Positions 14,768 through 20,695 of a stretch of 52,968 nucleotides of DNA are shown here, one piece after another. The translations under genes were made by a program, and so were the position numbers. This stretch comes from Gaiellales bacterium. Its GTDB lineage: Bacteria > Actinomycetota > Thermoleophilia > RBG-16-64-13. The notes under the pieces are model-generated. The model searched no databases and was not told where the DNA came from. It saw nothing but the letters and a program-made list of their open reading frames with translations. Every line of letters begins with the position of its first letter. Within the stretch, counting starts at the first letter, position 1. The stretch is taken from assembly GCA_012719395.1 (NCBI GenBank), contig JAAYAL010000078.1, forward strand, positions 1 to 52,968. The letters are read 5' to 3'.

Positions 14768-17077
14768 CTAGGCGCACTTGGAATACCCGCACGCGCGGCA
14801 GACCACGCAGCCCCCTTCGTGCTCGATGGCCCCTCCGCACTCTGGACAGGCCCCCTGCGCGTAGGCAATGGGCATCTCCAGCTGCTCCACTTCCGTCTCG
14901 TGCTCGGCATACGGCATCTCCTGAAGGTACTTGTCGGCAATGGCCTTGGCAATGGCATCAGGGCAGGACAGGATTTGCCTGGGCCCCAGACCCAGCGGCA
15001 CGTGGCAGCGAATGCCTTTCAGCTGTTTGACGATCTTGTCCGGCGACGCGCCGTAGCGGAAGGCCAGTGATATGAGGCGCCCCATAGCCTCCGTGGAGGC
15101 AGAGGCGCAGCCACCCGCTTTCCCCATGTTGGCGAAGACCTCACGCGGACCCAAATCGTCCTCATTCACGGTCACGTAGAGGCTGCCGCAGCCGGTGATC
15201 TTCTCCCGCGTCTCACCGTGCAACACACCACCGCGGCTACCGCGGGGCGCCGCCGTGCGCTGCCCGCAGGTAGGGCAGAGGTCACCGGGCACGAATTCGG
15301 GCTTGTGACCGTTGCCCGACGCACCTCCCGCTTTCTTGACCTCCCCGATGCTGAGAACCTGGTCCACGCGAGAGCCGTCGCGGTAGATGGTCACGCCCTT
15401 GGCTCCCAGCTGGTAGGCCATCAGGTAGACGTTCTCCACCTCACTGGGGCCGGCGCTGTTGGGGAAGTTGACCGTCTTGGAGACTGCGTTGTCGGTGTGC
15501 TCCTGGAAAGCAGCCTGCATACGGATATGCCACTCCGGCGACACGTCATGCGCCGTGGCGAAGACCCGCTTCATGTCATCCGGCACACCCTCGATGTGGC
15601 GCAACGAACCTTTCGCGGCCACAGCGCGCATCAGCCCCGGGGAATAGAGGCCACGCGCCCTCGTGACCTCTTCGAAGAAGGGGTGGGCCTCCGGCAACTG
15701 GGTGTTGTCGAGCACGTTGCGAATGAAGGCAAGCGCAAACAGCGGCTCTATCCCGCTGGAGCTGCCGGCGATGATGCTGATGGTTCCCGTGGGGGCGATG
15801 GTGGTCAACGTGGCATTGCGCACCCGGCGCCCACGCGCCTCCCAGATGCTGCCCTCATAGTTGGGGAAGACTCCCCGCTCCTCAGCCAAGTCTTCCGAGG
15901 CCCTTATCGCTTCCGCATCGATGAATCCCATGACCTTGCGCGCCAACTCCTCGGCTTCCGGCGAGTCATATGGAATCCCCAGCCGCATGAGCATGTCCGC
16001 CCATCCCATGACTCCCAGCCCGATCTTCCGATTGCCCTTGGTCATGCGCTCGATCTCAGGTAGCGGATAGCGGTTCATATCTATCACGTTGTCCAGGAAC
16101 CGTACCGCGAGGCGCGTCACCCGGCGCAACTCGTCCCAGTCCACCTCCCCGTCCGTGACCATGAGCCGCAAATTGACGGATCCCAGATTGCAGGACTCAT
16201 ACGGCAGGAGCGGCTGCTCGCCGCAAGGGTTCGTGGACTCGATCTGCCCCACGTGCGGCGTGGGGTTATCGCGGTTCAGCCGATCCAGGAAGACAATCCC
16301 GGGCTCCCCGTTCTTCCACGCCAGATTGACGATGAGGTCGAAGACCTCGCGCGCCCTGTACCTGGCAACTTCCTGTCCGTCACGAGGGTTGCGCACGACG
16401 TATTCCCCGTTGTTGAGCACCGCCTGCATGAACTCCTCTGTCACGCCCACGGAGATATTGAAGTTGTTGAGGACTCCTTCGTCCTCCTTGGCGGTGATGA
16501 ACTCCAGGATATCCGGATGGTCAACACGGAGGATGCCCATATTGGCGCCCCGGCGGGTCCCACCCTGCTTGATGGTCTCCGTAGCCGTGTCAAACACTCG
16601 CATGAAGGACACCGGGCCGCTGGCCACTCCGTTGGTGGACTTCACAATGTCATTCTTGGGGCGCAGGCGGGAGAAGCTGAAGCCGGTGCCACCCCCCGAC
16701 TGGTGGACAAGCGCCGCATTCTTGATAGCGGTGAAGATGGACTCCATGCTGTCTTCCACCGGGAGCACGAAACAGGCAGACAGCTGCTGCAGGTCGCGAC
16801 CGGCATTCATGAGTGTGGGCGAATTGGGCAGGAACTTGAGGCCGGCCATGAGTTCGAAGAACTGAGCAGCCACACGATCCGGGTCCGCGCCCGGCTGATA
16901 ACCCCTCTCGGCTTGGGCAATGTTCTCCGCCACGCGCGCGAACATATCTGCCGCCGCCTCTACCGGGTTTCCCTCCTCATCTCGCTGCAGATACCTCTTC
17001 TGGAGGACAGTCACCGCACTGGGCGACAGGACGTTCTCCAAGGCTTTCGACAAAGCCCTCATCTGCGCCACCGTCAC
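14768..17077 (-). CDS. nrdJ: Adenosylcobalamin-dependent (class II) ribonucleotide reductase
   Basis: The 769-residue protein reduces ribonucleotides using coenzyme B12 and so needs no oxygen or activase. It shows LPNSPTLMNAGRDLQQLSACFVLP (first active-site Cys), GGTGFSFSRLRP, NPCGEQPLLPYESCNLGSVNL (NPCGE with catalytic Cys and Glu), IAPTGTISIIAGSSSGIEP, a TSCPD-type domain (ASASTEAMGRLISLAFRYG) and a C-terminal zinc-ribbon CPECGGAIEHEGGCVVCRACGYSKC. The terminal cysteines probably shuttle reducing equivalents from thioredoxin or glutaredoxin. The GTG start overlaps the nrdR stop (GTGA at 17077-17074). Co-transcription with nrdR and the NrdR boxes upstream indicate NrdR control. Confidence 0.97.
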   Translation of the reverse strand: MTVAQMRALSKALENVLSPSAVTVLQKRYLQRDEEGNPVEAAADMFARVAENIAQAERGYQPGADPDRVAAQFFELMAGLKFLPNSPTLMNAGRDLQQLSACFVLPVEDSMESIFTAIKNAALVHQSGGGTGFSFSRLRPKNDIVKSTNGVASGPVSFMRVFDTATETIKQGGTRRGANMGILRVDHPDILEFITAKEDEGVLNNFNISVGVTEEFMQAVLNNGEYVVRNPRDGQEVARYRAREVFDLIVNLAWKNGEPGIVFLDRLNRDNPTPHVGQIESTNPCGEQPLLPYESCNLGSVNLRLMVTDGEVDWDELRRVTRLAVRFLDNVIDMNRYPLPEIERMTKGNRKIGLGVMGWADMLMRLGIPYDSPEAEELARKVMGFIDAEAIRASEDLAEERGVFPNYEGSIWEARGRRVRNATLTTIAPTGTISIIAGSSSGIEPLFALAFIRNVLDNTQLPEAHPFFEEVTRARGLYSPGLMRAVAAKGSLRHIEGVPDDMKRVFATAHDVSPEWHIRMQAAFQEHTDNAVSKTVNFPNSAGPSEVENVYLMAYQLGAKGVTIYRDGSRVDQVLSIGEVKKAGGASGNGHKPEFVPGDLCPTCGQRTAAPRGSRGGVLHGETREKITGCGSLYVTVNEDDLGPREVFANMGKAGGCASASTEAMGRLISLAFRYGASPDKIVKQLKGIRCHVPLGLGPRQILSCPDAIAKAIADKYLQEMPYAEHETEVEQLEMPIAYAQGACPECGGAIEHEGGCVVCRACGYSKCA

Positions 17078-17532
17078 AGCGCGCCTCCTTCTGACAACCC
17101 GGCCAGTTCCCGCTCGAATTCCTCTACGCTCTCGAAGTGCCGGTAGACGGAAGCGAACCGCACGTAGGCTACCAGGTCAATGCCCTTCAACCTCTCCAGC
17201 ACCATCTCGCCCAGACGCTCCGACGTCACCTCGTATAACCCCTCGCGCCTGAGCTCCGCCTGCACGTCACCCACAACGTCCTCCAGGCGGTTCAACGCCA
17301 CCTCGCGCTTGCTACACGCCCGCAACAAGCCCCGCAAGAGCTTGTCCGACTGGAATGGCTCCACGCTGCCACCGCGCTTGGAGACCACGATGGGAATTTC
17401 CTCGATCTTCTCGTAGGTGGTGAAGCGCCGGCCACACTCAGCGCATTCCCGACGACGCCGGACAGCCTGCCCATCCGCATCACGCGAGTCAACCACCCGC
17501 GTCTCCACCTGGCCACAGTAAGGGCACCGCAC
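17074..17532 (-). CDS. nrdR: Transcriptional repressor NrdR
   Basis: The 152-residue protein starts MRCPYCG, with the four-cysteine zinc ribbon (CPYC...CAECGRRFTTYE) followed by an ATP-cone domain (VVSKRGGSVEPFQSDKLLRGL...). NrdR senses ATP/dATP and represses ribonucleotide reductase genes by binding paired NrdR boxes. GTG 17532 has AGGTGG 5 bases upstream and gives the usual N-terminus; GTG 17541 would add three residues. The gene leads the nrdR-nrdJ operon and has a matching box pair in its own upstream region, so it is probably autoregulated. Confidence 0.97.
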   Translation of the reverse strand: MRCPYCGQVETRVVDSRDADGQAVRRRRECAECGRRFTTYEKIEEIPIVVSKRGGSVEPFQSDKLLRGLLRACSKREVALNRLEDVVGDVQAELRREGLYEVTSERLGEMVLERLKGIDLVAYVRFASVYRHFESVEEFERELAGLSEGGAL

Positions 17533-17542
17533 GCGAACCACC

Positions 17543-17632
17543 TATCCCCATGGCCCTGCGGCCACACTAGTATCCCCACAGCGTACACAGTTTTCCACCG
17601 ATGCCACCCGGTTATCCCCAGGTTTATCCACA
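17543..17632 (+). promoter_or_regulatory. Cluster of DnaA-box-like sites upstream of nrdR
   Basis: TTATCCACA at 17624-17632 is a perfect DnaA box. TTATCCCCA (17612-17620) and TTTTCCACC (17591-17599) differ at one or two positions, and TATCCCCA cores recur at 17543-17550 and 17571-17578, all in the same orientation. They lie in the leader of nrdR and the perfect one overlaps the nearer NrdR box. Confidence 0.6.
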
Positions 17633-17675
17633 ATATGTGGTAGGCAGTCTTAACCTAACACACAACATGTTGACA
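17628..17675 (-). promoter_or_regulatory. Pair of NrdR boxes controlling nrdR-nrdJ
   Basis: CCACAATATGTGGTAG (17628-17643) and ACACAACATGTTGACA (17660-17675) each match the 16-bp NrdR box consensus (acaCwAtATaTwgtgt) at about 11-12 positions. They start 32 bp apart, three helical turns, which is the spacing seen for cooperative NrdR binding. Confidence 0.75.
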
Positions 17676-17815
17676 CGCAAGGACGGTTGACCCTGTCCAA
17701 CCCGGCAGGGAGACATCGGGCCTGGAGTTGAATCATAACGCCCAGAGCGGACGGAACGAGCGCGCACAGCAGCTCGGGCCGCGGCACCCACGGGGAGCCA
17801 CGGAAACACGCAACC

Positions 17816-20695
17816 TCAGCGCACGCGACCCTGTTTGGCGCTCAGCCGCTCTGTGCGCTGATATGACTGGAGGGAGATGGCAGCCTGCAGGCGATTCGAC
17901 ACGCCCAACTTGCGGAACAGCCGGTTGGTATGGGTCTTCACCGTCTTCTCCGTGATGTAGAGACGCGCGGCGATGGCTTTGTTGGGCATGCCCAGCCCGA
18001 TCAAGCGCAGGATCTCCATCTCGCGGCATGTCAGCGTGGCCACTCTGCGTCCCAGTTCGGCTTCTTCCTGCGTTTGAGGCTCACACGCCCGACGTGGCGG
18101 GCCTTGCTGCACACGAACACGAGAGGGACGCCCGAGCGCCACATCCAGCGGGTAAACATCCCCTTCCGCAAGTCGCCTATAGTGGGCCCTTGCCCTGGCC
18201 CCCAGCCGCGGAGCAATGACCTGTTCCACGAACTCCCCGCACCCCACCCGCCGGCACAATGCGAGAACCGGGGCGCAGACGGCGGCCTCCTGCAGAAGGA
18301 AGTGGAGATAGCCCCCTTCCTGGCACAGAGTCATGGCCTCGGAAAGCGCGGAGATGGCCGCCTTTTCGCGACCGGCACGCGCGTGCAGCCAGCCCTCGTA
18401 CAGCCTGGCGGTAGCAAGCACGAAACGTATGCCGCACTTACGCGACTGCGCTACCGCCTGCTCCAGGGCGGCCAAGGCCTCAACGTCGCGGCCGGCCACC
18501 GCGAGGTCCATGCCCACCGCGGCCATGGCCCGCACGATCTCGTACCAGGACAACTGATGTTCCTTGGACATGGCGAGGGCCAGTTGATGGTGGCCCAACG
18601 CCTTGTCTGTGCTGACACCGCGCCGGCAGATGTCTCCCAGCATGGTCTCCGCCCAGACCTCCGCCTCAACGTCACCGGCCGCCTGACTGAGGCGCACGGC
18701 CTCGCGAACACGGCGATGCCCATCACGAATCTCGCCAACACCAAGGCAGGCGCCGGCAGAGCACAGCAGAACGGGGGCCTGCATGAAGCTCCAGCCTCTT
18801 GCTCCCACCACCTCCAGCGCGGCCCGCGCCTTCGTGGACGCCTCTTGGTATTCGCCCAGCTCCACCAGGAGGGTCGCGGCCGTGTTAAGGGCGGTAGCAT
18901 GAAGCTCGAGCCCCAAATCCGTCGAGCGGCGAACGCCCCGCGCGGCGTAGCGAGCAGCCGTCTGATACTGGCCACGAAGAAAGAAGAGCCGAGCACGATA
19001 GATGTCTATCCGCGCCTCAATATGGGGCCTGTCCGCGGCAGGGTGCTGGGCCAGAGCCACCTCGAACCTCTCGACGGCCTCATCCCAGCGACAGAGATTG
19101 AGGAGAACTGTCCCCATGTTGCAAAGGACCTCCGACTTCTCGCTGGGGGTGGATGCCGTACCCTCGGCCCGACGCAGCACACTCAGGCTCTCCTCCCAAC
19201 GGCCGAGTACGTACAGGCACAATGCCTCGCCCAGCAGTGCCTGCAGCAGACCATCCCGTGACGGGGAATGACCCAGCAGACGCGCCGCGGAACGAAAGAG
19301 CGGGCGTGCTTCTTCGAACTTGGCCCTGGACTGCAGAAGCCGCGCTCTCACCATGAGGAGCCACGGATCCTGGGAGGTGACCTCTTCAGGGAGCCGGTCC
19401 AGCCACTGGGCATCCGCAAAGGGTAACGAGGCATTGAGGGCGGAGACGGCAAGGCGACGGAGTGGCCTCACCGCCTCCGCGATCCGCCCTTCGGCCAGAT
19501 AGATGGACACGGCATTCCGCAACCGCCCGGCCGCTTCCAGGTGACGCGCCGCGGCCAGCGCCAGAGAGGCCGCACCCTCAGCGTCACATCGTTGATGCTC
19601 GCGCTGAATGAAGCCCTTGAACAGCGGATGCAGGGAGAAGTTGCCATGCCCTGCCCTGGTCACGAAGAAGCCGCGCGCCGCCAGATCGCTCAGGATGGGC
19701 TCACCATCCTCCGGGAGGAATACCGCGTCCCGAGACAGGTTGACACGCGGCAACTGCGCCGCCGAGATCAGCACCTGGAACACAGCCGGGTCAAGACCGG
19801 CGATCACCTGGTTGGCGAGGTATTCATTCAGGTCCTTACCCTTACGCAGCAATCCGACCACCCGGCTGCGCTGGTCTGCCCCCGATCCCTGTCTCAGCCT
19901 CTCTCCCAACAGCACGAGAGCGACCGGCCAACCCTCACTCAACCTCCACAGGGTCCGGGATTCGGAGATGCCCAGGTGGACCCCCCAGCAATCCTGGGCC
20001 CACGTTGCCACCTCCTTTGGGGTCAGGCGCAACGAGCGGAGATTGAGCTCCAGCGACCGGCCGTGGGAACGGCAGGTTCGGAGCGACAGGGGGAGAGGGG
20101 AACGTGAAGCCAGAAGCAGGAGCCAGCCGGCAGGTAGGTGATCCGCCAGGACCTGCAGAAAGGCTGCCAAGTCCGGCTGAGCACCGACCACGTGGAGATC
20201 ATCCAAGGCGATGACCCCCTGAACCTGCCCCCGCCCACCGCGCGGCGACAGGCCGGCGAGCAACTCCACCACCCGCTCTGCCACGTAGGCGCCCAGCCCC
20301 GCCTGGTCCTGAGTGCAGGCAAGCTCCTGGAGCAACGGTGCGCAACCTGCTCTCAGCCGAAACTCCAGAGCAGACAGGAGGCTTGAGAAGACGGCCCGTG
20401 TGTCCTGGTCGCCCTCATCGGCGAGGAAGTACACGTTGCGCTCCGGGGAGAACCCGGTGATGATCTCCACCAGGGCCGCAGTCTTCCCGCACCCGGGGCC
20501 ACACACGAGCGACACCACCCCGCCTTGACCCAGCCCCGCGACCAGCTGGTGCAGGCGCGGGCGAGGGAGAAGGTACCCTTGCCAGGGTAGGCTGGTCTTG
20601 GCCAACAACCTGCCCATGTGTTCGACCTGCCCTGGTTCTGTTGCAGACAGCTCCAGCCTCTCCGCCGCTCCTGGTTCGATCAACGCGGTGGACAT
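17816..20695 (-). CDS. Large MalT-like LuxR-family transcriptional regulator (LAL type)
   Basis: The 959-residue protein has an N-terminal STAND-type ATPase with Walker A CGPGCGKTAALVE and Walker B VIALDDLHVV, a long TPR-like helical region (about residues 350-800) with repeated AxxxLxxG-type units, and a C-terminal LuxR HTH: LTCREMEILRLIGLGMPNKAIAARLYITEKTVKTHTNRLFRKLGV. Such regulators bind ATP and an inducer, oligomerise and activate transcription. ATG 20695 has GGAG 4 bases upstream and starts MSTALIEPG; the open frame continues upstream through ssb in another frame and is not coding there. The inducer and targets are not evident from neighbours. Confidence 0.93.
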   Translation of the reverse strand: MSTALIEPGAAERLELSATEPGQVEHMGRLLAKTSLPWQGYLLPRPRLHQLVAGLGQGGVVSLVCGPGCGKTAALVEIITGFSPERNVYFLADEGDQDTRAVFSSLLSALEFRLRAGCAPLLQELACTQDQAGLGAYVAERVVELLAGLSPRGGRGQVQGVIALDDLHVVGAQPDLAAFLQVLADHLPAGWLLLLASRSPLPLSLRTCRSHGRSLELNLRSLRLTPKEVATWAQDCWGVHLGISESRTLWRLSEGWPVALVLLGERLRQGSGADQRSRVVGLLRKGKDLNEYLANQVIAGLDPAVFQVLISAAQLPRVNLSRDAVFLPEDGEPILSDLAARGFFVTRAGHGNFSLHPLFKGFIQREHQRCDAEGAASLALAAARHLEAAGRLRNAVSIYLAEGRIAEAVRPLRRLAVSALNASLPFADAQWLDRLPEEVTSQDPWLLMVRARLLQSRAKFEEARPLFRSAARLLGHSPSRDGLLQALLGEALCLYVLGRWEESLSVLRRAEGTASTPSEKSEVLCNMGTVLLNLCRWDEAVERFEVALAQHPAADRPHIEARIDIYRARLFFLRGQYQTAARYAARGVRRSTDLGLELHATALNTAATLLVELGEYQEASTKARAALEVVGARGWSFMQAPVLLCSAGACLGVGEIRDGHRRVREAVRLSQAAGDVEAEVWAETMLGDICRRGVSTDKALGHHQLALAMSKEHQLSWYEIVRAMAAVGMDLAVAGRDVEALAALEQAVAQSRKCGIRFVLATARLYEGWLHARAGREKAAISALSEAMTLCQEGGYLHFLLQEAAVCAPVLALCRRVGCGEFVEQVIAPRLGARARAHYRRLAEGDVYPLDVALGRPSRVRVQQGPPRRACEPQTQEEAELGRRVATLTCREMEILRLIGLGMPNKAIAARLYITEKTVKTHTNRLFRKLGVSNRLQAAISLQSYQRTERLSAKQGRVR

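Follow-up and report, generated by a model that had tools for sequence, protein, structure and literature searches.

Paired NrdR boxes fused to a phased DnaA-box array suggest a two-input promoter for a class II ribonucleotide reductase operon in an actinobacterial lineage

The window, that is, the whole stretch of 52,968 nucleotides analyzed here, is contig C74 of genome G000, a 2.43-Mb assembly in 92 contigs from a lineage of actinobacteria that counts the metagenome genome RBG_16_64_13 among its named relatives; the genomes of this family are mostly metagenome assemblies of an uncultured lineage. The minus strand of the window carries nrdR (17074..17541; TIGR00244, 184 bits), the repressor of ribonucleotide reductase (RNR) genes, and downstream of it nrdJ (14768..17077; NCBIfam NF006417, 1191 bits, and TIGR02504), the adenosylcobalamin-dependent or class II RNR, and in this way both elements of an NrdR-regulated RNR unit, the NrdR protein and the RNR gene, are encoded at a single locus. 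This nrdR-nrdJ order is also that of Streptomyces coelicolor. A PF02867 search of the G000 genome detected NrdJ as its sole RNR catalytic subunit. The true start of nrdR is probably the GTG at 17532 rather than the GTG at 17541, given that the resulting V/M-R-C-P-Y-C start matches the relatives, and a Shine-Dalgarno sequence, AGGTGG, is found at 17538-17543. In three related genomes of three genera, the nrdR-nrdJ operon lies on the same contig as dnaA and 105-167 kb from it (G003, contig C21; G005, contig C1; G009, contig C18), and would therefore be replicated early.

Upstream of nrdR-nrdJ, a previous sequence-only reading of this DNA had placed two NrdR boxes 32 bp apart, and both were recovered with precisely this start-to-start distance: NrdR box 1 at 17660..17675 (ACACAACATGTTGACA) and NrdR box 2 at 17628..17643 (CCACAATATGTGGTAG), each with 12 of 16 positions in agreement with ACACWATATNTWGTGT and each aligned in 17 family genomes. 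In the 53-kb window they belong to the best matches, with a tie at one other place only, and follow the spacing rule for two 16-bp palindromic NrdR boxes, namely a 31-32 bp period with a 15-16 bp linker (PMC2892513, PMC12176259), the other family genomes being likewise near that period. NrdR box 1 occupies the spacer of a predicted promoter composed of an extended -10, TGT-TAGGTT (17652..17657, minus strand), which aligns to the TTGACA-N17-TGCTAGCAT of the sister clade, and a poor -35, TTGCGT (17675-17680, minus strand), at a spacing of 17; a generic promoter scan did not call this predicted -35/-10 pair. NrdR box 2 comes shortly after the predicted transcription start, a position comparable with that of the true NrdR pair of E. 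coli nrdAB, which is also on the downstream side (PMC12176259).

The same reading had noticed a perfect DnaA box overlapping the nearer NrdR box, followed by four weaker near-matches in the same orientation, and all five stood when scored with a matrix derived from the DnaA boxes of oriC (the rpmH-dnaA interval) of 15 family genomes and from nothing else. Box a (17624..17632) is an exact TTATCCACA of 16.8 bits and has 5 bp in common with NrdR box 2 (17628-17632); box b (17612..17620) is TTATCCCCA, of 14.1 bits. The remaining three are weak in G000: box c (17591..17599; TTTTCCACC, 9.4 bits), box d (17570..17578; GTATCCCCA, 10.1 bits), which corresponds by alignment to CTGGGGATATC of the relatives, and box e (17542..17550; CTATCCCCA, 9.0 bits), the least certain of all, whose place is not kept in most relatives. 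These five boxes, annotated on the plus strand, share a single orientation and extend from NrdR box 2 into the nrdR leader, covering approximately +13 to +100 relative to the predicted transcription start, and the same matrix found no DnaA box on the opposite strand of the leader. Boxes a and b are separated by 3 bp and together make up a double DnaA box, TTATCCCCA-GGT-TTATCCACA (17612-17632), the perfect double-box match of G000, and this is the arrangement favoured in vivo by E. coli DnaA and present at E. coli nrdA (PMC11317965). The DnaA boxes of the family origins are TTATCCACA, TTTTCCACA, and TTATCCCCA, and at one homologous oriC box G009 and G014 carry TTATCCCCA where the others carry TTATCCACA, so the former is equivalent to a DnaA box there. 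Boxes a and b are accordingly of the organism's own oriC type by the family matrix, and domain IV of its DnaA protein retains the canonical recognition motif GGRDHTTVLHA. We regard the binding of DnaA to this array, as judged from its sequence, as very probable.

With the nrdR start at 17532, box e overlaps the Shine-Dalgarno region, and the last repeat also overlaps the ribosome site in G009 and G014, a feature which, together with the location of every repeat on the coding strand inside the predicted leader and the resemblance of their GGGGA words to Shine-Dalgarno sequences, would agree with repeats that work in the leader RNA, either as a protein-binding GGA repeat or as a riboswitch, and not as DNA sites. 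We consider this explanation very unlikely, since the helical phasing of the boxes, their fusion to a DNA operator, and their identity with oriC boxes all indicate DNA, and an Rfam search of 17400-17900 with E values up to 1 gave no match, the cobalamin riboswitch included, for which reason a riboswitch or other known RNA in the leader was rejected.

It could also be thought that a GC-rich genome abounds in TATCCCCA words and that the cluster is background; indeed, TGGGGATA is about twice as common in G000 as its reversed control (57 vs. 29 matches). Nevertheless, those 57 matches form only one trio within 100 bp, the one at the nrdR promoter, and the 87 matches to TTNTCCMCA form pairs less than 150 bp apart only at the nrdR promoter and at oriC (contig C66, 23584-23735). 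Likewise, none of 1000 dinucleotide shuffles reached the summed DnaA-box score of the promoter in any of the nine genomes that carry the array. The double box, searched for with at most one mismatch in 12 whole genomes, gave 16 matches against 3 for a reversed control pattern, and these were distributed among eight nrdR promoters, two oriC regions, one site beside dnaA, one at dnaN-recF in G002, and four places elsewhere; the G002 copy is near the dnaN-recF junction on contig C38 (L172). DnaA boxes in the 2.43-Mb genome thus cluster at the nrdR promoter and oriC and nowhere else, which answers in favor of the sequence-only reading the matter of box density in the rest of the genome, on which it had staked its proposal. 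Chance clustering of TATCCCCA was rejected by the shuffles, the genome-wide pair counts, and the double-box search, and with conservation in nine genomes besides, its probability is practically negligible.

Conservation in close relatives, the other matter on which that proposal had been made to depend, was followed in the 17 family genomes with readable DNA upstream of nrdR. The array is present in nine of them, belonging to six genera (G000, G002, G003, G005, G009, G011, G012, G013, and G014), each with 3-7 boxes that score 8 bits or more and lie without exception on the coding strand of nrdR; the remaining eight keep the NrdR boxes and have no DnaA box of at least 8 bits. The first DnaA box sits at the identical offset on NrdR box 2 in all nine array genomes, and therefore the NrdR arm TTGTGG is common to the DnaA box TGTGGAYAA/TGTGGATTA. 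A near-perfect double box is found at nrdR in eight of the nine, and in seven of the nine the same or nearly the same double box adjoins NrdR box 2, the other two having it elsewhere in the leader. The box offsets recur with a period of 10.8 bp (R = 0.86), a fit matched equally well by 4 of 2000 random layouts in a test on four distinct patterns that is limited by the relatedness of the genomes, and this phasing puts the DnaA boxes on roughly one face of the helix.

The several same-strand boxes, the closeness of nrdR to dnaA in the three genomes mentioned above, and the occurrence of double boxes at datA and DARS too (PMC11317965) could be taken to mean that the array is an origin-proximal site of DnaA titration or reactivation, similar to datA or DARS, which came to lie in the nrdR leader by chance. 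This is unlikely in our opinion, because the array holds a register locked to NrdR box 2 and stays with nrdR in six genera, neither of which pure titration needs, and because most genomes have just 3-5 boxes. The nrdR array resembles datA and DARS in having several DnaA boxes outside the origin, and differs from them in forming part of a promoter and being fused to the operator of another regulator.

The presence of the array tracks a split with 100% support in the DnaA tree, which was used because a concatenated tree of NrdR and NrdJ fragments showed an odd split with low support. The array is specific to one lineage: in the sister clade and in other families, the NrdR boxes stand alone, with no DnaA boxes. 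In a tree of NrdR, the clade without the array is nested within the array clade with low support, and either gain or loss of the array may account for its distribution; the nine related genomes may stand for one such event. A wide taxonomic spread was rejected given that, among 77 other named nrdR loci whose upstream sequence was long enough, most of them from Bacillota and Aminicenantes with some other actinobacterial ones, only one had a single exact DnaA box among the matches listed. A strict composite pattern matched twice in 396 genomes of the phylum, a weak negative on the spread of the array, since the same pattern misses G000, G009, and G014.

Taking all this together, we propose as probable that two inputs converge in the operator of the nrdR-nrdJ promoter, in which NrdR reads the level of (d)ATP and DnaA reads replication initiation. 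NrdR would bind the paired boxes as the first input; as the second, DnaA would nucleate where its affinity is high, on the double box (TTATCCACA-3 bp-TTATCCCCA) that begins inside NrdR box 2 and would then spread through the leader over the weaker boxes, which are near-integral helical turns apart. The two proteins would exclude each other at box 2, a step to which we give somewhat better than even credence; the 5 bp common to both sites in nine genomes make direct NrdR-DnaA competition plausible. As the likeliest net effect, a DnaA-ATP filament in the transcribed leader would lower nrdRJ transcription before initiation, and the fall of DnaA-ATP after initiation would release it, so that the sole detected RNR gene would be induced as the forks start. 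To this net effect of DnaA, a block of leader transcription by DnaA-ATP that is relieved after initiation, we give about even odds. The sequence-only reading had likewise tied class II reductase expression both to dATP and to replication initiation, with competition at the overlapping site; conservation and genome-wide density have strengthened that idea, and the competition and the link to replication timing are what we infer. A consideration against a two-input operator is that the array-free relatives manage with NrdR alone.

The promoter itself bears on the sign. Array-free relatives have a -35, a 17-bp spacer, and an extended -10, and in seven of these eight genomes the TTGACA-like hexamer agrees at 5-6 of 6 positions; the array clade retains the extended -10 and has only 2-4 of 6 matches at the -35. 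Because the -35 has decayed, activation or anti-repression is a serious rival: DnaA at the double box would displace NrdR from box 2 and aid the polymerase at a promoter without a -35, and nrdRJ expression would rise as DnaA accumulates. A poor -35 agrees with an activator-dependent promoter at least as well as with a repressed one, loss of the -35 consensus coincides with the presence of the array, the fixed 5-bp overlap would disrupt the NrdR box pair, and DnaA-ADP or low DnaA-ATP has been described as activating nrdAB in E. coli (PMC8203912). Against it, the boxes are downstream of the predicted start, where an activator would be unusual, the promoter itself has been assigned by prediction, and a single phylogenetic split underlies the link between the array and -35 loss. 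We hold activation as a tentative second reading, behind repression by the array.

DnaA control of RNR genes is already known for E. coli nrdAB and nrdDG and has been proposed in Caulobacter (PMC8203912, PMC11317965). At E. coli nrdAB, high DnaA-ATP represses, both signs have been described according to the nucleotide state and level of DnaA, and DnaA reportedly determines how strongly the genes are expressed and not necessarily when (PMC8203912). That promoter is similar to the present one in having a 3-bp-gap DnaA double box, gTTATCCACAaagTTATGCACTt (PMC11317965), and NrdR boxes at and downstream of the promoter (PMC12176259), and is different in serving a class Ia enzyme and in having no phased multi-box leader array reported in the literature searched; at the present locus, in contrast, nrdR is the first gene of the operon it controls and nrdJ the sole detected RNR catalytic-subunit gene. 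E. coli has double DnaA boxes at nrdD as well as nrdA, and at nrdDG a ChIP-seq site of DnaA containing a double box precedes an RNR that, as here, is not of class I (PMC11317965); in that case it is an anaerobic class III enzyme of a gammaproteobacterium, and the first box is weak. NrdR control of both class Ia and class II RNR is established in S. coelicolor, an actinobacterium whose nrdRJ, likewise for a class II RNR, carries NrdR boxes in a pair (PMC2892513), with no DnaA array reported in the literature searched. What is new here is the class II RNR target, the lineage, and the fused NrdR-DnaA site: our literature search, which covered few subscription papers, turned up neither a fused NrdR-DnaA box nor a class II RNR with DnaA boxes. 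We see about equal reason to accept and to doubt the broader proposition that, in the fused operator ...TTGTGGATAA, the downstream arm of the NrdR box is at the same time the nucleating DnaA box, setting dATP sensing in competition with DnaA, that the phased array makes the sole detected RNR gene, a B12-dependent one, a readout of initiation, and that a DnaA-RNR coupling evolved independently outside Proteobacteria, being gained with the loss of the -35.

The matching of dNTP supply to initiation has been worked out mainly for E. coli nrdAB, with the DnaA and NrdR inputs studied separately. At the nrdR promoter, both inputs fall on common base pairs and would act on a single detected RNR catalytic subunit, and a natural contrast is provided by close relatives that have these NrdR boxes but lack DnaA boxes, so the question of level versus timing can be put to the test with natural promoter pairs in a laboratory host. 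From its sequences, the supply of DNA precursors in the array lineage looks wired to the start of replication.

Several other conserved elements accompany these sites. The heptamer AGCGTAC/GTACGCT (17580..17586) lies beside DnaA box d, persists at nrdR in genomes without the array, and is also found beside DnaA boxes on the rpmH side of oriC in several relatives (L141, L142, L144, L145, and L146; for example, AGCGTACACAGG..CCTGTGGATACTGTGGA). A conserved palindrome, GTCCGCTCTGGGCGTTA (17736..17752), about 90 bp upstream of the promoter, is kept upstream of nrdR in the family; one of its four places in the G000 genome is a near-identical copy between rpmH and oriC (contig C66, 24061-24077; L132/L150), and other family copies are near tRNA genes (L148, L149, L155, L156, L158, and L166). 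It may serve growth-related genes as an operator, or may be a terminator or terminator-like hairpin of the upstream gene. The GTACGCT palindrome was rejected as an nrdR-specific operator since it occurs also near rpmH/oriC and tRNA genes, and its role is therefore probably more general. In other families of the class, an inverted repeat of the type CTCACCCTCRACNTNAAGGGTGAG, possibly a MerR-type operator, is present about 150 bp upstream of nrdR (L019, L023, L024, L025, L027, and L029), and in another family GCAATTTGCGNNATAAACTTT and CTCAACTTTAGGCTTA are conserved about 150-250 bp upstream of the gene (L018, L020, L021, L022, L026, and L028).
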